64,000 nt of DNA from Prosthecobacter dejongeii. GTDB taxonomy: Bacteria > Verrucomicrobiota > Verrucomicrobiia > Verrucomicrobiales > Verrucomicrobiaceae. The stretch is from the NCBI RefSeq assembly GCF_014203045.1, contig NZ_JACHIF010000003.1, positions 248,001 through 312,000 on the forward strand, read 5' to 3'. Position 1 is the stretch's first letter; each line of letters opens with the position of its first letter. This document shows positions 3,405 to 19,666 of this stretch, one piece after another. The notes below the pieces were generated by a model. That model was not told where the DNA came from. It saw only the letters and a program-made list of their open reading frames with translations, and searched no databases. Both the position numbers and the translations under genes were made by a program.

Positions 3405-6400
3405 ATGAGCACTGCCCAAATGTCCCGACCACCCCTGCACCGGCGGCCAGAGAATGTGCCGCAGGCGCCGTTGAGTTGGCTGAAGCCCAAGCACTGGTGG
3501 CAACTGTGGAAAGGGGAGGATAGCTCCATCCTCACCACCTCCACGCGCAATTCCATGCTGCCCGTGTTGATCGAGGTCTTTGCAGGCTTTTCCAAGCTGG
3601 ATGGCGAGGTGGAGGAAGGGGAAATCGAGTCCTCACTGGGCTACCTGCGGTACGACTACAGCGGGGCCATCTATGCGGACATGCGCCGCCTTTATTTTGA
3701 GGCCCTCCAGCAGCCGCAGGACCTGGCCCAGCGCGCGAAGGAACTGAGCAATGAGCTCACCATGGAGCAGAAGATCCTGCTCTGCGTGCAGCTCTACCTC
3801 CTCATCTCCAGCTCACTGACGAATCAGCGGCAGATGGTGGAGTTCTACCTCTTCATGACCAATCTGGGCATCGCCGCCCAGGCCATTGACATCGTTTATC
3901 AGCTCAATGCGGGGGACAAGCCTACCGAAGAAGACTTCACCAGCAAAAGCGGCCAGCCTTTGGAAACCCTGCGCGTGGGCTCCGGGGATGCTTGCGATGT
4001 GCTGCTGCGCTCACTCTCCGCCGACTGCTCCGTCGTCGCCTTCCGCTTTCAGAATCTGGTGCTGCTAAAGAACACCGGTGGCATCCCCATCCTGGTGCGC
4101 AGCCGCCGCCAGCCACCGGGGGATTTCTCCCGCCTGTATCCGGGCGAGCGCGTGGTGCTGGAGGACGTGACGCTGGACTACAACGACCTCATTTCCTACT
4201 TCAACTCAAAGAAGACGGTCACCGGCTCCCAGCTTTACCTCACCCTCACCGAGACAGGCGATGCCGAAATCGCCCAGCAGCGCGGTCGTGGGACGAATCT
4301 GCGCGTCAGTTTCGGCCTCGGTGTGACGGTGGAGGCCCTGCGCAGCACAGATGCCACCATCAATGGCGTGGCTTTGAAAGAGGGCACCATTGTCGAGGCC
4401 TCCATTGAGGACAGCATCATCGCCCAGGGAGAGATCGAAATCTCGCTCCGGGATCTGCGCGTGCGCGCCCAGGAGTTTGGCGGCCAGTTCCGCCTGGAAG
4501 GCAGCCGCAATACCTACCTCGTTTCTAACAAACCCGAGTTGCTGGATGAAGGGGACATTCTCCTCTCTGAAGACACCGAGGGGGAGATCCTCCTCCGCAT
4601 CGAGTGCAACTACTCGCAGAAAACCGGCGAGCTGGAGGTGCTGCGCAGTTCCCGCCCCATCTACGTCGGCCAGATCCCCGTGCGTGACCGCATCATGCTC
4701 AGTGATGGCGATACCATCACGCTGGGGGAAGGGCAGTTCCTGCGCTGTCATTTCAGTGACCGCATCATCGAGGAAGAGCGCAACACCATCCGCCAGATGG
4801 AGGTGCGCGAGCTGGCCCACCGCTTTGACGGGCGCGATACCGCGCTGGATGGCATCAGCTTCATCGCCCGCCGTGGGGAAATGATCTGCGTCATGGGCCC
4901 CAGCGGCTGTGGCAAAAGCACCCTGCTACGCGTGCTCGGCGGGCAGTTGAAAACTCGCGGTGGGGAAGTGTTGATGAACAGCCTTTCGCTGTACAACAAT
5001 CTCCACAATCTCACTCCCTACATCGCCTACATCCCGCAGGAAGATGCCTTTGACCCGCTGCTGAAGGTGCAGGAAAACCTGGACTTCTCCGTGGCCGTTC
5101 GCTGCCCACATTTGAAGACGGAAGAGCGGCGCAAACGGGTGGAGGCCAAACTGGCTGAACTGGGCCTGGCGGATATGCGCAAACGCCTGGCTGGAACCCC
5201 GCAGCAAAAGTATCTCTCTGGCGGTGAGCGCAAGCGTCTGAATGCCGGCCTGGACATGATCGGCATCTCCGATGTCTATCTCTTCGATGAGCCCACCTCC
5301 GGCCTGTCCTCCAAGGACAGTGAGCACGTGCTGGAGATCATCCGCAGCCTCGCGCGCAACAAGATCGTCCTCACCTCCATCCACCAGCCCAGCATGAGGC
5401 TGCTGCAGATGTTTGATAAAGCCCTGCTGCTGGATAAAGGCGGGAAGTTGGCCTACTTCGGCACGCCGCAGGGCATGATTGAGTATTTTTGGAAAGCCTA
5501 CAACGATGAGACTGGCCAGCGCGAAGCCGAGATGCCGGGTAATCTCACGCCCGACTTTGTCTTCGACGTTTTAGAGACACCCCTGCGCGACATCAGTGGC
5601 GACATCATCCAGGAACGCAGTGCCGATGGCCACCTCGTCGCCGCGCGGCGTTTCCCGCCGAATTTCTGGCGAGACCGCTACCAGAGCCACCTCATGCTGG
5701 AGAGCATGGCGAAGGCCCAGGCCTTTCCCGGCAGCACGAATCTCATCGCCCGTCCACGAGAGGATACCCACACCACGGGCCGCTCACGGACCATGCCCAA
5801 GCCGCCCAAACACACGCTGCGGGAAGAGAGCATCCTCTTTTACACCCTGCTGAAGCGTGCCTTTCTCAGCAAGCTGCGCAATCGTACCAATCTCCTCACC
5901 ACCTTGCTGGAGGCGCCTCTGCTCGGCTTCCTCATCTCCAGCGTGCTGAAATACAGCGAGGAGGAAAGTTACACCTACGCCACCGCCTTCCACATCCCCA
6001 CCTACCTCTTCATGAGTCTGGTGGTGGCCATGTTCCTGGGCCTAACGAACAGTGCGGATGAGATCATCCGCGACCGTCACACCCTCAGTCGAGAGCGTAA
6101 CCATAACCTACGTACGTTTTATTACCTCAGTGGCAAGATCATCTCCTTGAGCACCTTCGCGCTCATCCAGTGCTTCATCTACCTGCTCATCGGTAACAAC
6201 GTGCTGGAGATACGAGACATGTTCTTTGTCCACCTCTGGTGGATGTTTGTCACCGCTCTAACTGGCATCTGTCTAGGCCTGGTCATCTCCAGCGTGGTCA
6301 CGGATAACCGTACCGCCATCAATGCCATCCCGCTCATCCTCATCCCGCAGATCATCCTCGGCGGGGCACTCATCAAGTATGAGGAGATGAATAAAAACCT

Positions 6401-7043
6401 CGATTTCGTTTACTCCATGCAGCGCTGGCTGGACAAAGCCGGCGTGACGGAGGAGAGCGAGCCGAGCAAGCTCAAGGTCCCCTTCATCTGCCAGTTCATG
6501 CCTCTGCGCTGGAGCTATGAAGCCATGCTGATCTCTCAGGCGAAATTGAATCCCCTCACGGCTGCGCAAGACCAGCTCGAGGCGCGCATTCAAGAACTGG
6601 TGAATCTGCCCAAGGACATCAAGATGACCTCCGACCAGCAGCGGGATCTGGATGCGGCCAAACAAGGCCTGGCCGTGGTCTCCGGTCTCTATGCCAAAAC
6701 GGAACGCGAAGCCGCTGCCAAACTGCGCGAAATTCGCGATGCCACCATGCGCGGCAGGGTCACGCCCAAGCTGCTACAAAGCGCCCTGGAGCAGGAAGAT
6801 GGTGTCAGTGCGGAAGAGATCTATGTGAACCGCAAGGTGCTGGACCTCGTCACCAAAGCAGAAATGGAGCGCACCGATTACCGCCGTAAAATCCAGCCCA
6901 ATGTGTTCTTCGGCACGGTGAAACGCTACTTCGGCACAGACTTCGATACCCTGTGGATCAATGCCATGGTCATCTTCATGACCCTCGCCGTCTTGATCAC
7001 CGTCATCGAGATCTCCCTGCGCCGTCAACTCACCCGCGTTTGA
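3405..7043 (+). CDS. ABCG-type ABC transporter with TerB-like and FHA-like N-terminal regions
   Basis: A 1212-residue single-chain half transporter. An N-terminal helical region (about residues 45-165) resembles TerB/DnaJ-type acidic helical domains. Residues about 175-470 contain two glycine/serine-rich beta segments of FHA-like character (for example LRVGSGDACDVLLRSLS and IPVRDRIMLSDGDTITLGEG). The nucleotide-binding domain follows: Walker A GPSGCGKST near 498, signature LSGGERKR near 604, Walker B VYLFDEPTSGL and H-loop TSIHQPS. About six membrane segments of the ABC-2/ABCG type lie between about 820 and 1020, then a helical charged insert and a last membrane segment near the C-terminus. 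ABCG half transporters act as dimers. Substrate unknown; FHA domains bind phosphothreonine, so phosphorylation control is plausible. Confidence 0.85.
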   Translation: MSTAQMSRPPLHRRPENVPQAPLSWLKPKHWWQLWKGEDSSILTTSTRNSMLPVLIEVFAGFSKLDGEVEEGEIESSLGYLRYDYSGAIYADMRRLYFEALQQPQDLAQRAKELSNELTMEQKILLCVQLYLLISSSLTNQRQMVEFYLFMTNLGIAAQAIDIVYQLNAGDKPTEEDFTSKSGQPLETLRVGSGDACDVLLRSLSADCSVVAFRFQNLVLLKNTGGIPILVRSRRQPPGDFSRLYPGERVVLEDVTLDYNDLISYFNSKKTVTGSQLYLTLTETGDAEIAQQRGRGTNLRVSFGLGVTVEALRSTDATINGVALKEGTIVEASIEDSIIAQGEIEISLRDLRVRAQEFGGQFRLEGSRNTYLVSNKPELLDEGDILLSEDTEGEILLRIECNYSQKTGELEVLRSSRPIYVGQIPVRDRIMLSDGDTITLGEGQFLRCHFSDRIIEEERNTIRQMEVRELAHRFDGRDTALDGISFIARRGEMICVMGPSGCGKSTLLRVLGGQLKTRGGEVLMNSLSLYNNLHNLTPYIAYIPQEDAFDPLLKVQENLDFSVAVRCPHLKTEERRKRVEAKLAELGLADMRKRLAGTPQQKYLSGGERKRLNAGLDMIGISDVYLFDEPTSGLSSKDSEHVLEIIRSLARNKIVLTSIHQPSMRLLQMFDKALLLDKGGKLAYFGTPQGMIEYFWKAYNDETGQREAEMPGNLTPDFVFDVLETPLRDISGDIIQERSADGHLVAARRFPPNFWRDRYQSHLMLESMAKAQAFPGSTNLIARPREDTHTTGRSRTMPKPPKHTLREESILFYTLLKRAFLSKLRNRTNLLTTLLEAPLLGFLISSVLKYSEEESYTYATAFHIPTYLFMSLVVAMFLGLTNSADEIIRDRHTLSRERNHNLRTFYYLSGKIISLSTFALIQCFIYLLIGNNVLEIRDMFFVHLWWMFVTALTGICLGLVISSVVTDNRTAINAIPLILIPQIILGGALIKYEEMNKNLDFVYSMQRWLDKAGVTEESEPSKLKVPFICQFMPLRWSYEAMLISQAKLNPLTAAQDQLEARIQELVNLPKDIKMTSDQQRDLDAAKQGLAVVSGLYAKTEREAAAKLREIRDATMRGRVTPKLLQSALEQEDGVSAEEIYVNRKVLDLVTKAEMERTDYRRKIQPNVFFGTVKRYFGTDFDTLWINAMVIFMTLAVLITVIEISLRRQLTRV

Positions 7044-8215: not shown

Positions 8216-8899
8216 ATGATCATGGCTATGAATGACCCCATCCACATCGAGGCAGAACCTTACACCTTTGAGTTAGTGCCTGCCAAATGTGCCCTGCTCA
8301 TCATTGACATGCAGCGTGACTTTTTGGAACCCGGCGGCTTTGGCGAGATGCTGGGAAATGATGTCTCCCAGCTCCGTCAGGCCATCGTGCCTAACCAAAA
8401 GCTGCTTTCAGCCTGGCGGGCAGCAGGGTTGCAGGTCCTGCACACCCGTGAGGGGCATCGCCCCGATCTGGCGGATCTGCCACCGGCTAAAAAAGTGCGC
8501 GGTCACGGGGCCAAGACCATCGGCGATACCGGGCCCATGGGGCGCATCCTCATCCGTGGTGAAGAAGGACATGACATCATCCCTGAGCTCTATCCGCTCC
8601 GGGGGGAGCCGGTCATAGATAAACCGGGGAAAGGGGCCTTCTTCGCCACGGACCTTCATGCCATTCTGCAAAATCTGGGCATCACCCAGTTGGTCGTAAC
8701 AGGGGTCACCACGGAGGTGTGTGTCAATACCACCGTCCGCGAGGCCAATGACCGCGGTTACGAATGTCTCGTGCCGGAGGACTGCGTGGCCTCCTACTTC
8801 CCCATCTTCCAGGAGATGGGGCTGAAAATGATCAAAGCCCAGGGGGGCATCTTTGGCTGGGTCACAGACTCTTCCAAGATCATTCCCGCTCTGGCCTAA
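8216..8899 (+). CDS. Isochorismatase-family cysteine hydrolase, candidate triuret hydrolase
   Basis: A 227-residue cysteine hydrolase. The catalytic triad is visible: Asp31 in LLIIDMQRDF, Lys136 in VIDKPGKGAFF and Cys169 in GVTTEVCV, with the cis-peptide region GVTT before the cysteine. It is clearly a paralogue of the BiuH-like gene at 10642 (shared [11 protein letters not shown]-type and IIPELYPL motifs) but differs where substrate is read, for example KKVRGHGAKTIGDTGP versus [17 protein letters not shown], and in its longer C-terminal SYFPIFQ segment. Biuret hydrolases and triuret hydrolase (TrtA) are sister enzymes that often sit together, so triuret is the leading candidate substrate; a ureidoacrylate (RutB-like) or other ureide hydrolase is possible. 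ATGs at 8216, 8222 and 8228 are all usable starts. Confidence 0.7.
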   Translation: MIMAMNDPIHIEAEPYTFELVPAKCALLIIDMQRDFLEPGGFGEMLGNDVSQLRQAIVPNQKLLSAWRAAGLQVLHTREGHRPDLADLPPAKKVRGHGAKTIGDTGPMGRILIRGEEGHDIIPELYPLRGEPVIDKPGKGAFFATDLHAILQNLGITQLVVTGVTTEVCVNTTVREANDRGYECLVPEDCVASYFPIFQEMGLKMIKAQGGIFGWVTDSSKIIPALA

Positions 8900-10597: not shown

Positions 10598-10600
10598 ACT

Positions 10601-10616
10601 TGGTTCACTCTTTGCT
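10601..10616 (+). promoter_or_regulatory. Candidate sigma54 promoter of the biuret hydrolase gene
   Basis: TGGTTCA-CTCT-TTGCT has GG-N10-GC spacing and a perfect TTGCT -12 element (9 of 12 positions). Predicted start of transcription is near 10627, 15 bases before the ATG at 10642. Confidence 0.35.
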
Positions 10617-10641
10617 ACAGAATTTTAAAACAATCCTTCTC

Positions 10642-11322
10642 ATGCCTTACGTCGAAGCTGATCCTTATCCCTGGCCCTACAATGGTGACCTGCGGCCCGC
10701 GAATACCGCGTTTCTGGTCATTGACATGCAGACTGACTTTTGTGGCCCCGGTGGCTACGTGGATAAAATGGGGTACGACCTCAGCCTCACTCGTGCGCCC
10801 ATCGAGCCCATCAAGCGCGTCTTTGAAGCGGCCCGTGCTCAGGGTTACCACGTCATGCACACCCGTGAGGGCCACCGGCCAGATCTCTCAGACCTCCCGG
10901 CTAACAAACGATGGCGCAGCCAACGCATCGGCGCAGGCATCGGCGATGCTGGGCCCTGTGGGCGCATCCTCACACGTGGCGAACCAGGCTGGGACATCAT
11001 CCCGGAGCTTTACCCCCTACCGGGAGAGGCCATCATTGATAAGCCCGGCAAAGGCTCCTTTTACGGCACGGATCTCGACATGCTTCTGCGGCAAAAAGGC
11101 ATCCAAAACATCGTCCTCGCAGGGATCACCACAGATGTCTGTGTGCACACCACCATGCGTGAAGCCAATGACCGTGGCTTTGAATGCCTCATGCTTTCGG
11201 ACTGCACTGGTGCCACCGATCATGGCAACCATCTTGCTGCACTGAAAATGATCAAAATGCAGGGCGGGGTCTTCGGAGCCGTGAGTGACTCCGCCGCCTT
11301 CATCCGCGCGATCACTTCTTAA
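10642..11322 (+). CDS. biuH: Biuret amidohydrolase (BiuH-like cysteine hydrolase)
   Basis: A 226-residue isochorismatase-family hydrolase that should cut biuret to allophanate plus ammonia in the cytoplasm. It follows the Rhizobium BiuH pattern closely from memory of that protein: [11 protein letters not shown]-type N-terminus, [17 protein letters not shown], and [15 protein letters not shown]. Asp28, Lys134 and Cys167 fall at a constant offset of eight from the published BiuH triad Asp36/Lys142/Cys175. The ATG at 10642 is preferred to an upstream TTG (10600) because it matches the family start and clears the candidate promoter. The next two steps of the pathway fit the context: a permease upstream and an allophanate hydrolase at 23638. 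Confidence 0.85.
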
Positions 11323-11878: not shown

Positions 11879-13459
11879 ATGAAGAAGCGAGCTGCCACCA
11901 AGTCTCCGCGCCCTCCCAAGCGCGAAAGCCTGCCTGAAATCGTCACCGATTCTTATGAAGAGCATTTCCGGCTGCTGGTGGAAAACATCGGAGACGTGCT
12001 CTGGTTTCGTGAGGTGGACCCGCCGCGTTTTTCATACGTCAGCCCAGCTTTTGAGCGCATTTGGGGGGTGAGATTGGCGGAGCTCAGGGAGCAACCTCAG
12101 CTTTGGGAAGAGTCCATCTATCCCGATGATCAAAAGGCGGTGCGTGCCGCACTGCGGCGTTGGTTCACGGGCAAAACGGAGAATTACGAAGTGCATTACC
12201 GCGTGCAGGGCAGGGACGGTAAAGTCCGCTGGCTGGCAGACCGGGGCATCATTCTCTCTCGCAAAAATGGACGTCCGCACCAGATCGGCGGTATCGCGCG
12301 CGACATCACGGAACGTGAAGCTGCGGAGGCCATGAACCGCCGCATGGCCGCCGTGGTAGAGACCACGGATGACTCCATCATCACCATGAATCTGGACGGT
12401 GAGATTGATACCTGGAATGCCGGTGCTGAACGCATCTTTGGTTATACCCAGGAGGAGGCCGTGGGCCGGACGATGTCCTTTCTGCGGCCACCCCAGGCTG
12501 AAGATGACGAGGCGGTCTTTAAGCGCATGATCGCTCGCGGGTTGCGCATTGATCATTACGAAACGCAGCGCCGTCATAAAAATGGAGCCATCCTGGATGT
12601 CTCGTTGACCATTTCCCCCATCCGCGATGCCCATGGCCGACTGGCTGGGTTCTCCAAGATCTCTCGCGACATCACCGAACGTAAACAGGCGGAGCAGACC
12701 ATTCTACGCTTGAATGCCGAGCTGGAGCGCCGGGTGGAAGAACGTACGGCGGAACTGCGTGGCCAGATCGCCGCACGGCGGCAGCTTGAGGAGGAAATCC
12801 TGCGCATCAGTGAGCGTGAGCAGCGCCGCATCGGCCAAGATTTGCATGATGACCTCGGCCAGCAACTGGCCGGGGCCTGGATGATGGCCGACGTTCTCGC
12901 GCGTACCTTGGCGGCCAATGGAGCCCGTGAGCAAGAGGCCGCGCTGAAGCTGAGCACCCTCCTGGGCAAATCACTGAACCACACCCGCGCTCTCGCGCGT
13001 GGCCTGCATCCCGTCGCTCCAGAGCAGGGCGGGTTAGGCGCGGCGTTAAAAAACTTGGCGGAACGTTCGGCGGATTTGTTTGGCATCACCTGCCAGTTTG
13101 AATCGCGCGCCGTCATCATGCTGGAGGATCAGCGCAGCGCCATCCACCTTTACCGCATCGCCCAGGAGGCCATCAACAATGCCGTGCGCCATGGGCGGGC
13201 TCAAAACGTGCGCATTCGCCTCTCCCGGCGCGGGGGCAAGGCAGCCTTGTCTGTGATTGATGACGGCCTCGGCATCAAGGAACCAGCGGCCATGCATGAA
13301 GGCATGGGCCTGCGCATCATGCGCTACCGCTCGGAAATGATCTTCGGAACGCTCGAAATTGTGAAAGCTCCAAAACGCGGCACTTGTGTGACCTGCGTTT
13401 TCCCACTGCCGCCCGCTTCCAAACCCACCTCTTCTTCAAATGGCCTCAAAAAGCTCTAA
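11879..13459 (+). CDS. PAS-domain sensor histidine kinase (NarL/DesK-type)
   Basis: A 526-residue kinase with no membrane segment, so a cytoplasmic sensor. Two PAS/PAC units cover about residues 20-140 and 150-270, each ending in a DITER/RDITERK PAC motif; a coiled coil follows, then the HisKA_3 dimerisation domain with phospho-acceptor His323 in QDLHDDLGQQLAG, and a HATPase_c domain (NAVRHGRA, DDGLGI, GMGLRIM). This is the architecture of kinases that pair with LuxR/NarL regulators, and the next gene is such a regulator, overlapping by 20 bases. PAS ligand (flavin, haem or none) cannot be told. The position 77 bases after the cupin gene may link it to the nitrogen cluster. Confidence 0.9.
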   Translation: MKKRAATKSPRPPKRESLPEIVTDSYEEHFRLLVENIGDVLWFREVDPPRFSYVSPAFERIWGVRLAELREQPQLWEESIYPDDQKAVRAALRRWFTGKTENYEVHYRVQGRDGKVRWLADRGIILSRKNGRPHQIGGIARDITEREAAEAMNRRMAAVVETTDDSIITMNLDGEIDTWNAGAERIFGYTQEEAVGRTMSFLRPPQAEDDEAVFKRMIARGLRIDHYETQRRHKNGAILDVSLTISPIRDAHGRLAGFSKISRDITERKQAEQTILRLNAELERRVEERTAELRGQIAARRQLEEEILRISEREQRRIGQDLHDDLGQQLAGAWMMADVLARTLAANGAREQEAALKLSTLLGKSLNHTRALARGLHPVAPEQGGLGAALKNLAERSADLFGITCQFESRAVIMLEDQRSAIHLYRIAQEAINNAVRHGRAQNVRIRLSRRGGKAALSVIDDGLGIKEPAAMHEGMGLRIMRYRSEMIFGTLEIVKAPKRGTCVTCVFPLPPASKPTSSSNGLKKL

Positions 13460-14120
13460 CACGCCAGCCGCTCCCCAACGTGTGTTGATCGTGGATGATC
13501 ATCCCGTCTTCCGGGCGGGTCTCACGGGTCTCGTGGGCATGGAGCCCGACCTTGCCGTCTGTGGTGAGGCGCACGATGCTGGGCAGGCCATGGCCGCCAT
13601 CGCGAAGCTGAATCCAGACCTCGTGATGATGGACATGAGCCTGCCGGATAAGAGCGGCCTGGAGACGCTGAAAGACGTCCGTGCTGCCTACCCGCACATC
13701 CCCGTTTTGATGATCTCCATGCATGACGAGACGCTGTATGCGGAGCGCGTCATCCGGGCCGGAGGGCGTGGTTACATCATGAAGCAGGAAGGACCGGAGA
13801 AAGTCATCCAGGCCATCCGTAAAGTTTTGGCAGGGGGGATATCGGTGAGTGAACGTATTTCCACGCTCATCCTGGATGCTTTGGCCAGCTCCCTGCACCC
13901 CAAGCAGGAAGGCGCATCGGTTACTAAATTGACCGATCGCGAATTTGAGGTCTATCGCCTGATCGGGCAGGGGAAGGAGCCGCAAGAGGTCGCGCGTTCA
14001 CTTCATCTCAGTGTCAAAACCGTGGACACTCACCGCAGCCAGATCAAAAAGAAACTGGGGCTGAAAAACAACACCGAGCTGGTCCACCACGCCACCCGCT
14101 GGGCTGCGGAACAGGGGTGA
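13440..14120 (+). CDS. LuxR/NarL-family response regulator
   Basis: A 226-residue regulator: receiver domain with the acidic pocket VDDHP, phospho-acceptor Asp in PDLVMMDMSLPDKSG, and a conserved Lys in YIMKQEG, then a GerE/LuxR helix-turn-helix (LTDREFEVYRLIGQGKEPQEVA...LSVKTVDTHRSQIKKKLGL). Its start codon lies inside the 3' end of the kinase gene, which indicates translational coupling and a cognate pair. Two palindromes but no T-rich terminator follow the stop codon. Target genes unknown. Confidence 0.9.
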   Translation: MASKSSNTPAAPQRVLIVDDHPVFRAGLTGLVGMEPDLAVCGEAHDAGQAMAAIAKLNPDLVMMDMSLPDKSGLETLKDVRAAYPHIPVLMISMHDETLYAERVIRAGGRGYIMKQEGPEKVIQAIRKVLAGGISVSERISTLILDALASSLHPKQEGASVTKLTDREFEVYRLIGQGKEPQEVARSLHLSVKTVDTHRSQIKKKLGLKNNTELVHHATRWAAEQG

Positions 14121-14669: not shown

Positions 14670-16922
14670 ATGCCTGCGCTTTCTCCTTCTGGCAACTCAC
14701 CTGCTGACATTACTACACGCCCTCTTTCAGTGAACACGTTGGCGCAGCTCAGCGCCATCACTGGAACGGATTATGATCATGAACGGGCAAAAATCGCGGT
14801 GCAAAACGCGGCGAGGGAAGACCTGGAGCCTCTAGGCCAGTTGGTCAGCGCAGCGGCTGAGGTGTACATCCACGTGTCTCCCGTGCGCTTACCCCTGACG
14901 GAGCTGGTCTGGCAGGCCCACAATGACACCCCGGTGATCATTTGGTGTGAGAAGGATGGGGGCTGGATCGTCATCACCTATGCGGGCTGGTTCAGCCTCC
15001 GCGTTGCGGAGGGAGACCACCCCACGGCCCGCCGCAGCATCACGCGGAAAGAGCTAGCGGCTAAGCTAGGCCTCAGCGGGATCAAAGAAATCGTGGAAGC
15101 TGGCATCGTCCATCCAGAGCGCACCGCTCATGACATGAGCGTGCACGCAGCCCAGGCCCGTCATGAGCAGATGTATGGCAGCAATGGGGCGGGCCAGCAC
15201 CGGAATGGCCATGGCAATGGGCATGCACATGCGCACCTGCACCTCAGCCCGGTCACGCGTTTCTTCCGGCTTTTAAAAGCTGAGCGGCAGGAGATTGTCA
15301 CCCTGCTCATCTTTTCCATCTTCTCCGGGATCCTTTACCTCGCCGCCCCTTTGGCGGTGGATGCAGTGGTGAGTAATCTCGCTTTCGGCGGGCAGTCGCA
15401 GCCTTACTTTCAGGCTTTGGTCATCGTGGGCGTAGCCTTGATGGCTGCCCTGTCTCTCCAGGCCTTGATCACAGGTCTGCAATATTACATTTCAGACATC
15501 ATCCAGCGGCGCATTTTTGTGCGGGCGGCGGCAGACCTCGCTTACCGCTTACCCCGCGTGCGGGCAGAGTCTCTGGAAGGCGTCCACGCTCCTGAGTTGG
15601 TGAATCGTTTCTTAGATGTGGTCACCGCGCAGAAAAGCACTGCCTTGCTCCTGCTGGATGGGGTGAATTTGACCCTCGGCAGCCTCATCGGCATGGTGCT
15701 TCTGGCTTTGTATCACCCGGTGCTGTTGATGTTTGTGGCCATCTTGCTCCTGCTCATCGTGCTGGTGCTCTGGCTGTGTGGGCGTGGTGCGGTGGAGACC
15801 AGCATCGCAGAATCCCGCACGAAGTATGACCTCGTGAATTGGTTTGAGGAGATCGCCGCTTACCCCTTTCTTTTCAAAGGTCCCGGGGGTTATCAGCTCG
15901 CCTATGAGCGCTCGAACCATCTCGCTTCCGAGTATGTCATGCGTCGCTCCGCGCACTTTCGGGTGGTCATGCGGCAGATCATCGGCCTGCTCATTCTTTC
16001 CGTCCTGGCGGGGGCTACCTTGCTCGTGCTGGGGGGGTGGTTGGTCGTCAGCCAGCAGATCACCCTCGGCCAGTTGGTGGCCAGTGAGCTCATCATGAGT
16101 GCCATCGTGGCTTCTCTGGCCAAGATGGGAAAAAAGCTGGAAGCCTGGTACGATGCCATGGCTGCCATGGACAAGCTGGGGCACATTTTTGATTTGGAGA
16201 TCGAACGCGAAACGGGAGAGCAGCCGGTGAAGAAAGAAGGCGGCGCCTCCGTCGTGGCGGACAGTCTCACTTTTGGTTATAACGAACATTCGCCTCTGTT
16301 TCATCTCCGCACCTTCACCATCCAGCCCGGCGCACGGGCAGCCATCGTCGGCCCGCACGGTGCTGGGGCCAGTTCTTTGCTGGATATCCTCTTCTCCCTG
16401 CGCACCCCCACCTCGGGTCATGTCTGCATTGATGGGCTGGACCTGCGAAGCTGGTATCTGGAGGCCCTGCGGGACCACGTGCAGCTCCTGCGCCGGGATG
16501 AAATCGTGGACGCCACAGTCGTGGAAAACCTACGCCTTGGGCGGGCGGATATCGGCATGGATGAAATCCGCGAGGCGCTCGTGCGTGTGGGCTTGCTGGA
16601 CAGGCTCCTCGCCCGTCCTGAAGGCTTGAATCTCCGCCTTAAGATCGGCGGTGCCCCTCTCTCTGGCAATGAACGCACGCGCCTACTGCTGGCTCGCTCA
16701 CTCGTCCAGCGCCCGCGTCTCCTTCTCGTTGACGAGCTGTTTGACAGTTTGGATCCCGAGTCCTTCAAGACACTCTCCGCAGCCATCTTGGATAAATCCC
16801 TGCCCTGGACGGTCGTCCTCACCACGCGGGATCACGATGTCACCCAGCTCTGTGACCAAGTCATCCAGCTCGCCCCCTGTAACCTGACCGATGGCACCGC
16901 TTCGACCCAGCTCAAAGGCTAA
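14670..16922 (+). CDS. ABC exporter (membrane plus ATPase fused) with degenerate Walker A
   Basis: A 750-residue protein of the type I secretion exporter shape. Residues about 1-170 are a soluble domain in the position of the peptidase or C39-like region but without a recognisable Cys/His pair in that layout, followed by a His/Gly-rich linker (about 175-192). Five to six membrane segments span about 210-500, and the nucleotide-binding domain spans about 525-740. The Walker A motif reads GPHGAGAS, with Ala567 where the catalytic lysine should be; the signature reads LSGNE instead of LSGGQ, and the H-loop histidine is replaced (LTTRDHD). Walker B (LLLVDELFDSLD) looks intact. It therefore may bind but not hydrolyse ATP normally. 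HlyD- and TolC-like genes follow at once, so it is part of an envelope-spanning exporter. Confidence 0.85.
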   Translation: MPALSPSGNSPADITTRPLSVNTLAQLSAITGTDYDHERAKIAVQNAAREDLEPLGQLVSAAAEVYIHVSPVRLPLTELVWQAHNDTPVIIWCEKDGGWIVITYAGWFSLRVAEGDHPTARRSITRKELAAKLGLSGIKEIVEAGIVHPERTAHDMSVHAAQARHEQMYGSNGAGQHRNGHGNGHAHAHLHLSPVTRFFRLLKAERQEIVTLLIFSIFSGILYLAAPLAVDAVVSNLAFGGQSQPYFQALVIVGVALMAALSLQALITGLQYYISDIIQRRIFVRAAADLAYRLPRVRAESLEGVHAPELVNRFLDVVTAQKSTALLLLDGVNLTLGSLIGMVLLALYHPVLLMFVAILLLLIVLVLWLCGRGAVETSIAESRTKYDLVNWFEEIAAYPFLFKGPGGYQLAYERSNHLASEYVMRRSAHFRVVMRQIIGLLILSVLAGATLLVLGGWLVVSQQITLGQLVASELIMSAIVASLAKMGKKLEAWYDAMAAMDKLGHIFDLEIERETGEQPVKKEGGASVVADSLTFGYNEHSPLFHLRTFTIQPGARAAIVGPHGAGASSLLDILFSLRTPTSGHVCIDGLDLRSWYLEALRDHVQLLRRDEIVDATVVENLRLGRADIGMDEIREALVRVGLLDRLLARPEGLNLRLKIGGAPLSGNERTRLLLARSLVQRPRLLLVDELFDSLDPESFKTLSAAILDKSLPWTVVLTTRDHDVTQLCDQVIQLAPCNLTDGTASTQLKG

Positions 16923-16934
16923 GCCCGACCTGCT

Positions 16935-18221
16935 ATGACTGACTTTGCCACCTCTCCGCAACTGCCCGCGCTCTCACTCGCAGGAGCCACACGTTACACG
17001 CGTTTGTTCAGTCGTTTGCTGGTCTTGGGCTTCATCGCTTTTGTCCTAGGCTGCTTCTTTTTGCCTTGGCGCCAGTTCGTTTCCGGCAGTGGCCGAGTCA
17101 TCGCCTTCAATCCGCTCGACCGCCGCATCAACATTGAGGCCCAGGTCTCTGGCCGGGTCAAGCACCTGCATGTGGTCGAAGGGCAGCGCGTGAAAAAAGG
17201 CGACCTCGTGGTGGAAATCCAGGACAACGACCCCGACCTCATCGCCAATCTCCGGGCTCAGCGCGAGGCGATAGACAGTCGGCGAAACTTTGCGTTAGGC
17301 CGGGTGGAGTCGCTCATCGCCCAAATCACCCAGCAAGAGCTGGCCAAGGCGCAAGCCATTGATGGGGCTGAGCAGCGCGTGGCGGCCGCCAAAATCGCCG
17401 CTGAAACCGCAGCGCTGAATTACTCCCGAACTCATGCCTTGTTTGAAAAAGGACTTTCATCCCAGCGTGAACATGAACTGGCCACCCTCCAGCGCGACTC
17501 CACGACTGCCGACTTAAAGTCTGCTGAGGCTGCCCTAAAGCGCACCAGCAATGACTTTGACGCCACCATTTCTTCCATCCACGCGCAGAAGGGATCTGCC
17601 CATAGCGATGTCGCCACAGCGGATCGTGATCTCTCCGTGATAGACGTGCAGATCAACCAATCGCAGCGGCAAATCGTCGAGTCTCCGCGAGATGGCATCG
17701 TCCTCCAGGTGGCTGCCACGGATGGCACTTACCTCCGTCCCGGTTCATTGATCTGCGTCATCATTCCAGAAACGGACAGTCGTTTTGTTGAAATCTGGGT
17801 CAGTGGCAATGACATGCCGCTCATCCATGCTCGCAAAGAGGAAGGTGGGGTGGTGACACCCGGTAGCTCCGTCCGTCTCGCTTTTGAAGGCTGGCCTGCC
17901 GTGCAGATGATCGGCTGGCCTCAGCTCGCCATCGGTACCTTTGGTGGGGAGGTCGTTTTTGTGGATGCGACGGATGATGGGTTAGGCCGTTTCCGTGTGG
18001 TCATCGGCCCTTCAGATGATGTGGTGAACCGAGGGGATGGCCAGGGCCCCGTGAAAGTGGGCTGGCCGGATAAGCAGCGCTGGCTACGCCAGGGGGTGCG
18101 TGCGAATGCTTGGGTCATGCTGAATGAAGTGCCCCTGTGGTTTGAACTGTGGCGTCAGATCAATGGCTTCCCGCCTCTGATCTCCAATGCCGAAGGAAAA
18201 CTCGACTCCACCAAAAAATGA
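16935..18221 (+). CDS. HlyD-family membrane fusion (periplasmic adaptor) protein
   Basis: A 428-residue adaptor: one N-terminal membrane anchor (LLVLGFIAFVLGCFFLPW, about 30-48), a biotinyl-lipoyl-like half motif (VSGRVKHLHVVEGQRVKKGD), a long alpha-helical hairpin rich in Ala, Gln and Glu (about 100-235), then the second lipoyl half (SPRDGIVLQVAATDGTYLRPG) and a beta-barrel region. This protein class bridges an inner-membrane ABC exporter to a TolC-type outer-membrane channel. It starts 12 bases after the ABC gene and its stop overlaps the start of the TolC-like gene by 4 bases (ATGA), so the three are one operon. Confidence 0.9.
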   Translation: MTDFATSPQLPALSLAGATRYTRLFSRLLVLGFIAFVLGCFFLPWRQFVSGSGRVIAFNPLDRRINIEAQVSGRVKHLHVVEGQRVKKGDLVVEIQDNDPDLIANLRAQREAIDSRRNFALGRVESLIAQITQQELAKAQAIDGAEQRVAAAKIAAETAALNYSRTHALFEKGLSSQREHELATLQRDSTTADLKSAEAALKRTSNDFDATISSIHAQKGSAHSDVATADRDLSVIDVQINQSQRQIVESPRDGIVLQVAATDGTYLRPGSLICVIIPETDSRFVEIWVSGNDMPLIHARKEEGGVVTPGSSVRLAFEGWPAVQMIGWPQLAIGTFGGEVVFVDATDDGLGRFRVVIGPSDDVVNRGDGQGPVKVGWPDKQRWLRQGVRANAWVMLNEVPLWFELWRQINGFPPLISNAEGKLDSTKK

Positions 18222-19666
18222 AGATGCTCCTCCCGCTCTCTTTATCGGTGGGGCGGTGCTTAGCCGTCGCCACCGCCGCCCTCGCTTGGCTAGTCCTGCC
18301 TGCGGCCTCTGCCGCCCCGAAGCCTCTGCTGCTTTCAGAAGTGCTGGCCAGCGTGCAGACCCAGTATCCGCCATACTTGGCAGCATTGATCGAGCAAGAC
18401 ATCGCCAACGGTCGCGCCCGTCAGGCCCTGGGTGCTTTTGATCTCAACATCAACGTCGGTGGTGCCTTTAAGCCAGCGGGATATTACGATGGGCAGACGG
18501 GGTATGCCGTGCTGGACCAGCCCTTGCCCTTTTGGGGGGGCAATGTGTACGGGGGCTATCGCCTCAGCAGTGGCTTTTTGCCGAACTATAACAAGGAGCG
18601 CACCAGCACAGATGGTGAGGCCGTCCTGGGCTTTCGCATGCCCCTGCTGCGTGACGGTACCATTGACCGTCGCCGGGCCACTTTTTGGCAGTCCCAGATA
18701 GACCAGGAGTTGGCAGATCCCCTGATCCTGCGGCAGTATCTGGACTTCATCCGCGCAGCCACGGTTTCTTATTATAGCTGGGTCGCAGCCGGGCAGCGGC
18801 TCAACATCACAGAGGAGCTGCTGCGCATCGCTAAAAATCGTGACTCAGGCATCGCGGAGCAGGTCAAACGCGGAGCCTCCGCACCCATCGTCCAGATTGA
18901 TAACCAGCGCCTCGTCGTCAGTCGTGAGATCGCCGTGGTGCAGGCCCTACGGCGTTTTCAATCTTCCGCCATTGAGCTCTCGCTTTTCCATCGTTCTCGT
19001 GAGCTGGCAGAGCCCATCATCAGCCCGCGCGAGCGTGTGCCTGCCGCCTTCCCTCCGCATCCCCGGCCCGATGAAACGCAAGTCACTGCAGCCATTGCCA
19101 AGGCAGCCATTTTCCGCCCGGAAATCCGCCGCATTGAGTTGACGATCGAAAAGAATGAGATTGATCGCAAGCTCGCCAAAAACAACCTCATGCCCTACCT
19201 GGACGTTGGCGTGGAGGCCGCGCAGGCCACGGGTGGCACTTTGCCCAAAGACATCGAGCGGACTGAGATCGAGGCCAAAATCGAGTTCAAGATGCCGCTG
19301 CAAAGGCGCGAGGCCAAGGGACGACTGGAGGTGGCCGAGTCCCTCATCCAGCGCCTGAACAATGAGAAGCAGTTCGCCCGTGACCGCATCGCCGCAGACG
19401 TGCGGGACAGCCATAGCGCCATCATCGCGGCCTATGACGCCTTGCTCCAGACCCGTAAAAATGTGGATCTCTCTCAGCAGCTTGAAGACGCTGAAAACGA
19501 ACGTCTCAAACAAGGTGCCACCGATCTGCTCGCTCTACAGATCCGTGAGCAGGCCACCTTCGATGCCAAGGTGCTGGAGGTGGAGGCACAGGCGGAGTAC
19601 TTCCGTGCCCTGGCAAACTACCGCGCCGCCACCGCTGCGGATGCGCCGCCTAGCCTGGCCCGTTAA
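18218..19666 (+). CDS. TolC-like outer-membrane efflux protein
   Basis: A 482-residue protein with a Sec signal peptide (MKMLLPLSLSVGRCLAVATAALAWLVLPAASA) and long amphipathic helices with repeated Ala/Glu/Gln/Arg residues, as in the outer-membrane efflux (OEP) family. The ATG at 18218 overlaps the HlyD stop codon and gives a proper signal peptide; an upstream GTG at 18149 would add 23 charged residues ahead of it and is rejected. With the two preceding genes it completes a tripartite exporter across both membranes. Cargo is unknown; no toxin or bacteriocin-like gene is adjacent. Confidence 0.85.
   Translation: MKMLLPLSLSVGRCLAVATAALAWLVLPAASAAPKPLLLSEVLASVQTQYPPYLAALIEQDIANGRARQALGAFDLNINVGGAFKPAGYYDGQTGYAVLDQPLPFWGGNVYGGYRLSSGFLPNYNKERTSTDGEAVLGFRMPLLRDGTIDRRRATFWQSQIDQELADPLILRQYLDFIRAATVSYYSWVAAGQRLNITEELLRIAKNRDSGIAEQVKRGASAPIVQIDNQRLVVSREIAVVQALRRFQSSAIELSLFHRSRELAEPIISPRERVPAAFPPHPRPDETQVTAAIAKAAIFRPEIRRIELTIEKNEIDRKLAKNNLMPYLDVGVEAAQATGGTLPKDIERTEIEAKIEFKMPLQRREAKGRLEVAESLIQRLNNEKQFARDRIAADVRDSHSAIIAAYDALLQTRKNVDLSQQLEDAENERLKQGATDLLALQIREQATFDAKVLEVEAQAEYFRALANYRAATAADAPPSLAR

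Follow-up and report, generated by a model that had tools for sequence, protein, structure and literature searches.

An exporter-type operon of Prosthecobacter dejongeii whose ABC protein lacks most ATPase motifs

ATP hydrolysis is the defining trait of ATP-binding cassette (ABC) exporters, and the view that their membrane domains can also operate on ion gradients rests largely on work with LmrA and MsbA, partly with truncated proteins. MsbA without its nucleotide-binding domain (NBD) is reported to carry out pH-gradient-dependent ethidium efflux (PMC4979069), and the membrane domain of LmrA alone to conduct ions, Glu314 of transmembrane helix 6 (TM6) being needed for proton-coupled transport (PMC6155054). 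Pdr5 has two sites, one of which tolerates changes of the Walker A Lys to Cys and of the H-loop His to Tyr, both found in NBD1 (PMC7756269). Here, we describe an operon from Prosthecobacter dejongeii that encodes an ABC half-exporter, a HlyD-family adaptor and a TolC-family outer-membrane protein. It lies in a 64,000-nucleotide stretch (contig NZ_JACHIF010000003.1, positions 248,001 to 312,000), referred to as the window, within which all positions are counted. The ABC protein is a HlyB-like exporter in which the loss of ATPase motifs is natural and conserved. An earlier account of such a family was not found among the matches listed from open-licence PMC papers, which is no proof of absence.

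The operon and its ABC protein

A sequence-only reading of the window had described a Walker A motif GPHGAGAS with Ala567 in place of the essential lysine, a signature LSGNE, an intact Walker B, loss of the H-loop histidine and an intact coding frame. Translation and alignment bear out each of these points, and the observation is confirmed and was understated. The H-loop histidine of canonical exporters aligns to Arg720, next to Thr719, and the Q-loop glutamine, which that reading did not mention, is replaced as well (Arg608-Arg609). Only Walker B is intact among the five ATPase motifs, and judged by its residues the protein does not carry the motif set of a functional ABC ATPase.

The loss is shared by relatives. 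In an alignment of Verrucomicrobial orthologues, lysine is absent at position 567 from all 50 rows, which have Ala (36), Cys (5), Ser (5), Thr (2) or Val (2); this count leaves out two rows of L071, in which a frame change splits the gene, and one of L040, which has no NBD. The separate NBD piece of L071 also has Ala at the lysine place. The sequence-only reading had named a sequencing error or a close homologue bearing the lysine as grounds for its rejection; the close homologues G033 (96% identical) and G034 (83% identical) have the same Ala567.

The features of the operon are as follows.

14670..16922, +: ABC half-exporter, 750 residues, ATPase-degenerate; an open reading frame matching PF00005 (68.3 bits) and just missing PF00664 (24.9 bits, cut-off 28), with HlyB (8dck_A) as top fold match
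14727..15119, +: N-terminal domain, residues about 20-150 (AlphaFold2 model and Foldseek)
15198..15245, +: His-rich linker, residues 177-192, of varying length among orthologues and His-rich wherever found (45 rows)
15249..16199, +: transmembrane domain (TMD), residues 194-510, the family's conserved core (alignments and TMD-only searches)
15603..15635, +: first intracellular loop motif N312 R313 ... Q321 K322, in 39/39 family rows
15714..15716, +: His349 at the end of TM3, in 39/39 family rows
16086..16088, +: Glu473 in TM6, in 39/39 family rows; A, I, L and V in four canonical exporters
16248..16889, +: NBD fold, residues 527-740 (Pfam, structure model)
16350..16373, +: Walker A GPHGAGAS, residues 561-568, with the Ala567 codon (16368-16370) at the lysine place (orthologue alignment)
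16491..16496, +: Q-loop Arg608-Arg609, no Gln; R608 in 49/50 orthologue rows
16659..16673, +: signature LSGNE, residues 664-668; LSGNQ in most close relatives
16719..16736, +: Walker B LLLVDE, residues 684-689, intact (orthologue alignment)
16824..16829, +: H-loop Thr719-Arg720, no His; R720 in 48/48 orthologue rows
16935..18221, +: HlyD-family periplasmic adaptor, 428 residues (PF13437, PF16576)
18218..19666, +: TolC-family outer-membrane protein with an inferred ATG start (PF02321, 80 bits); the listed frame starts at GTG 18149

The sequence-only reading had described a full trio with overlapping stops. The trio is present and the HlyD and TolC genes share four bases (ATG 18218-18220, TGA 18219-18221), but a gap of 12 bases separates the ABC and HlyD genes. 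The four-base overlap makes 18218 a likelier start for the TolC protein than the listed GTG. The gene content is that of a type I secretion system (T1SS). Against TIGR03375, the family of LssB-type T1SS ABC proteins, the ABC protein scores 182.9 bits, compared with a curated cut-off of 693.1, and ATP-driven protein secretion by the trio is a putative role.

The model of the ABC protein (mean pLDDT 78.3, pTM 0.55) has the Type IV ABC exporter fold, a six-helix TMD followed by an NBD, with Z of at least 8 in all 997 aligned chains among the top matches from Foldseek. HlyB is the top match (E 6.7e-28, Z 29.4, root-mean-square deviation 7.9 over 649 residues), tied with TmrAB (6rai_B; Z 29.0, deviation 3.2 over 546 aligned residues). 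Because a search with the whole model says little about the N-terminal domain, the first 150 residues were folded separately (AlphaFold2, mean pLDDT 82.7). Their best match, the C39-like domain of HlyB (3zua), is weak (E 1.8e-3, probability 1.00, TMq 0.46), nothing being found at E of 0.001 or below; the domain probably has a C39-like fold, any peptidase role of which would be putative. The His-rich linker, another feature pointed out in the sequence-only reading, is indeed present and recurs in orthologues: a simple rule located it in 45 of 53 rows, and there it has 2-8 His per 25 residues.

Conservation of the membrane domain across the family

Searching plasmids by tblastn, with the HlyD and ABC proteins as queries, revealed a wider family. 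The trio also occurs on plasmids of Persicobacter, Aureibacter and Riemerella (Bacteroidota) and of Sphingomonadales, with ABC matches that are 26-33% identical. Comparison of their ATP sites indicates that different residues are broken in different lineages. Persicobacter has the lysine (GYNNSGKN) and has lost Walker B; Riemerella retains GDTASGKS and reads LLLKE at the Walker B place; Aureibacter and the sphingomonads have lost even the P-loop, and Sphingomonadales Walker B as well; and the sites of the more distant Verrucomicrobia L156 and L158 differ yet again. The sphingomonad protein L111 has no PF00005 match at E 0.01, and the Riemerella protein matches with 61.6 bits. Across 39 family rows, which are distinct sequences including several close copies and one row interrupted by an insertion sequence (L165), the lysine column reads E13 A11 K5 C3 S3 D2 T1 V1. 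Twenty rows keep none of the five ATPase motifs and 19 keep one, none keeping more. The Q-loop criterion of this count is generous, any Gln at 606-610 being taken (two rows pass only in this way), and the signature pattern also admits LSVG. By the same count, each of the host's four canonical exporters has 5/5.

The TMD behaves differently. Mean pairwise identity is 0.741 for the TMD and 0.661 for the NBD among 28 same-genus rows, 0.707 and 0.562 in Sphingomonadales (13 rows) and 0.499 and 0.305 in Bacteroidota (4 rows). The TMD is thus the more conserved domain in all three groups, whereas the control, 30 same-genus orthologues of a canonical exporter (L073), shows the reverse (0.784 and 0.857). 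An alignment of 27 rows has 22 invariant columns, 20 belonging to the TMD part and the other two to the NBD. Eleven polar or aromatic TMD residues are present in 39/39 rows (N312, R313, Q321, K322, H349, S382, K385, W391, Q436, E473 and Y494), and at ten of these places the family residue is absent from the four canonical exporters, R313 being common to two of them. In the model, TM6 spans residues 466-484, and Glu473 is eighth in this helix. Searches with the TMD alone among 72,556 plasmid records returned 22, 18 and 20 records at E 1e-3, and since all fall within one set of 22 the TMD marks a separate group. Nineteen of these records were read and all belong to the family; the other three are Riemerella records with a TMD score equal to that of the one read. 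A TMD tree also separates the family from the four canonical exporters, but the branches are very long and flagged as unsafe; the tree splits the Verrucomicrobia into two pieces owing to L156. An early genome survey, in which four candidates per genome were scored, gives a frequency of at least 6/240. A weaker ABC hit from Azospirillum (L119) is not a family member.

The ratio of nonsynonymous to synonymous substitution rates (dN/dS) for the whole ABC gene is 0.059 against G033 and 0.093 against G034, with values of 0.013 and 0.053 for the TMD. The operon is also kept as a unit: HlyD follows the ABC gene in 38/42 and TolC in 36/42 orthologue loci, each missing case being a contig end, and the ABC and HlyD genes occur in the identical 39 of 44 genus genomes. 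On this comparative evidence, the TMD and the operon are held under purifying selection while the catalytic motifs have been lost.

Several observations concern the surroundings of the operon. Genes for a PAS histidine kinase and a LuxR-type response regulator lie upstream (window 11879-14120), and homologues of one or both are near the operon in only some relatives (L003, L008, L009, L035, L121 and L122). Further upstream, a 529-residue gene without a Pfam match sits between two isochorismatase-domain genes (window 8216-8899 and 10600-11322), and a 1212-residue protein (window 3405-7043) combines a central ABC_tran domain and an ABC-2 permease with about 460 extra N-terminal residues; it is White/ABCG-like, with a TIGR00955 score under the cut-off. 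On plasmids of Sphingobium TKS and Sphingopyxis 113P3 (L163 and L165), a shortened ABC gene is followed by IS3-family transposase genes, and annotated HlyD and TolC genes are absent.

Proposed energy source and rival explanations

The loss of ATPase motifs in every relative checked, together with the tight conservation of the TMD, leads us to suggest that the energy for transport probably comes from a source other than ATP hydrolysis, an ion gradient being the most likely one. In the mechanism that we propose, to which we give about an even chance, an inner-membrane ABC-type protein, the HlyD adaptor and the TolC channel would form a tripartite trans-envelope transporter. The ABC protein would act as a homodimer and would no longer hydrolyse ATP; its NBDs, to which the conserved intracellular loop would hold on, would be left with a structural or gating role, and transport through the TMD would be powered by a proton or sodium gradient. 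By analogy with the membrane domains of LmrA and MsbA, the invariant Glu473 of TM6 and nearby polar residues may serve in coupling, Glu473 being the sole candidate feature of an ion-coupled ABC membrane domain.

Several points weigh against this proposal. In the Verrucomicrobial clade, the conserved P-loop glycines, Walker B Asp and signature Ser and the nearly conserved D-loop Asp (46/50) suggest that nucleotide binding may be possible, and the NBD is itself under selection (dN/dS 0.048 and 0.091 against G033 and G034). Lysine still occupies the Walker A column in 5/39 family rows, all outside Verrucomicrobiaceae and with other motifs lost. The likeness of Glu473 to Glu314 of LmrA is a putative analogy, and the conserved polar TMD residues, the N312-K322 loop above all, could alternatively serve structure, adaptor contact or substrate. 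The closest experimental mimic, MsbA without its Walker A lysine, is reported to be transport-inactive in ATP-containing cells (PMC4979069). That inactivity offers a possible reason for a dead NBD to evolve away from binding ATP.

The sequence-only reading had offered a second active ATPase or a different coupling as explanations. Different coupling is the better supported; a second ATPase found no support. A heterodimer or mixed oligomer, in which a canonical half-exporter supplies one working site to the degenerate subunit as in heterodimeric exporters and, inside a single chain, in Pdr5, is in our view unlikely. The host genome was searched with PF00005 and TIGR03375, and the four other type-IV exporters found were read and counted over 44 genus genomes. 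All four are canonical (signatures LSGGQ, LSGGE, LSVGE and LSGGQ), none has a complementary degenerate signature and none lies inside the operon. They are present in 39, 40, 41 and 41 of the 44 genomes, the second and third being counted at >50% identity since their raw tallies (42 and 43) mix the two paralogues. A shared partner is conceivable on account of this near-universal presence, although nothing points to one, and the same exporters persist in the five genus genomes that lack the trio (the first and fourth in 5/5, the second and third in 4/5). Ser665 of the signature, kept in 49/50 orthologues, could complete the site of a partner, and some relatives have Cys at the lysine place, like Pdr5. 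Against this, no second ABC gene adjoins the trio in the annotated plasmid stretches, and Sphingomonadales have lost Walker B as well. Two long ABC frames of the host genome (L107 and L108) are ABC-2 permeases and not partner candidates; the remaining ABC frames, not read individually, match in their NBDs only. At an assembly completeness of 96.4%, a partner may have escaped the search.

A rewired site in the Verrucomicrobial clade, with Arg608 and Arg720 replacing the lost charge so that ATP would still bind and gate, or be hydrolysed slowly, has a similarly low probability. The residues involved are strongly kept in this clade: R608 (49/50), R720 (48/48), P-loop glycines 564 and 566 (both 50/50), Asp688 (50/50) and an acidic residue at 689 (48/50; Glu 43, Asp 5). 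Other phyla, however, drop these arginines and often the P-loop too, while the TMD stays. Since the ATP site is destroyed there, such a site would not be the core of the family.

CFTR is an ABC protein that turned into a channel. A passive gated conduit or scaffold, in which a dead ABC protein serves as an anchor for HlyD and TolC and allows a solute or ion to pass down its gradient without active transport, would agree with the dispensability of the motor motifs across the family. A linkage to the inorganic-carbon genes of the DAB system would suit an anion or CO2 route. The eleven invariant polar or aromatic TMD residues would hardly be needed by a mere anchor, and we regard this alternative, too, as improbable.

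DAB is a CO2-hydrating system driven by proton-motive force (PMC13144422). In 15/42 Verrucomicrobial loci, read with flanks of at most 6 kb and in many cases less, and in 1/19 plasmid loci (L116), the trio has a DabA, DabB-like or SulP/carbonic-anhydrase relative nearby. The order DabB, DabA, ABC, HlyD, TolC on one strand is shared by a Verrucomicrobium locus (L011, 1777-10900) and a Sphingobium plasmid (L116, 2-8136), members of two phyla. This shared order is the basis for a further, very doubtful idea, that an ABC lineage turned into a secondary-active or channel-like transporter working with proton-driven DAB in inorganic-carbon or pH handling. Of 34 genus genomes having both genes, nine show DabA and the ABC gene no more than 12 kb apart; for two of the nine the DabA hit is partial and at a contig end, and related genomes are non-independent. 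The corresponding figures for two of the four canonical exporters, used as a control, are 0/33 and 0/35. Among the plasmid DabA matches listed (40 of 123), only L116 doubles as a family record. No DAB, SulP or LysR relatives were found in the 64 kb window around the operon itself, and the nearest DabA on its contig is 169 kb away, which makes the linkage a lead and not a rule, and not a feature of the host genome. In 11/42 Verrucomicrobial loci, the ABC gene is immediately preceded by a divergently oriented LysR regulator gene. Two Verrucomicrobial regulators tested (L004:4965-5906 and L007:2832-3758) fit NhaR best and three near the trio in sphingomonads are OxyR-like, all below cut-off; a single shared LysR regulator was rejected on account of this difference.

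Sequencing error or a decaying pseudogene can be dismissed even though one genome has split copies (L071/L037) and two plasmids have copies cut by IS3, since the identical substitution in relatives 96% and 83% identical, the lysine count of 0/50, the conserved loss in orthologues, dN/dS of 0.06-0.09 and the operon kept as a unit already refute it, as the sequence-only reading had held of decay.

Comparison with known systems

A natural family that has lost its ATPase motifs in three phyla, with the TMD kept, would provide a direct test system for the question of whether ABC membrane domains run on ion gradients, and the reading of some genes annotated as 'ABC transporter ATP-binding protein' would change. 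The window protein resembles the T1SS ABC exporters (HlyB and the LssB/LapB group) in its fold and its ABC-HlyD-TolC trio, and perhaps in a C39-like N-terminus, for which the match is weak, but differs from them in lacking the ATPase motifs and in scoring far under the TIGR03375 cut-off. The SecA_DEAD-HlyD loci of Planctomycetes and Verrucomicrobia are reported to contain no ABC gene (PMC4452313). In these loci, too, an unusual energy component accompanies T1SS-like HlyD/OEP genes; an ABC gene is present here, and identity with a SecA_DEAD-T1SS locus was therefore set aside. Like Pdr5 NBD1, the window protein lacks the Walker A Lys and the H-loop His. Pdr5, TM287/288, TmrAB and TAP, however, keep one canonical site per complex, whereas no canonical partner was found for the window protein in the search described above. 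The membrane domains LmrA-MD and MsbA-MD transport or conduct without a working NBD; ion coupling in the present family is putative, and those proteins are laboratory truncations, whereas here the loss of the ATPase is natural and conserved.

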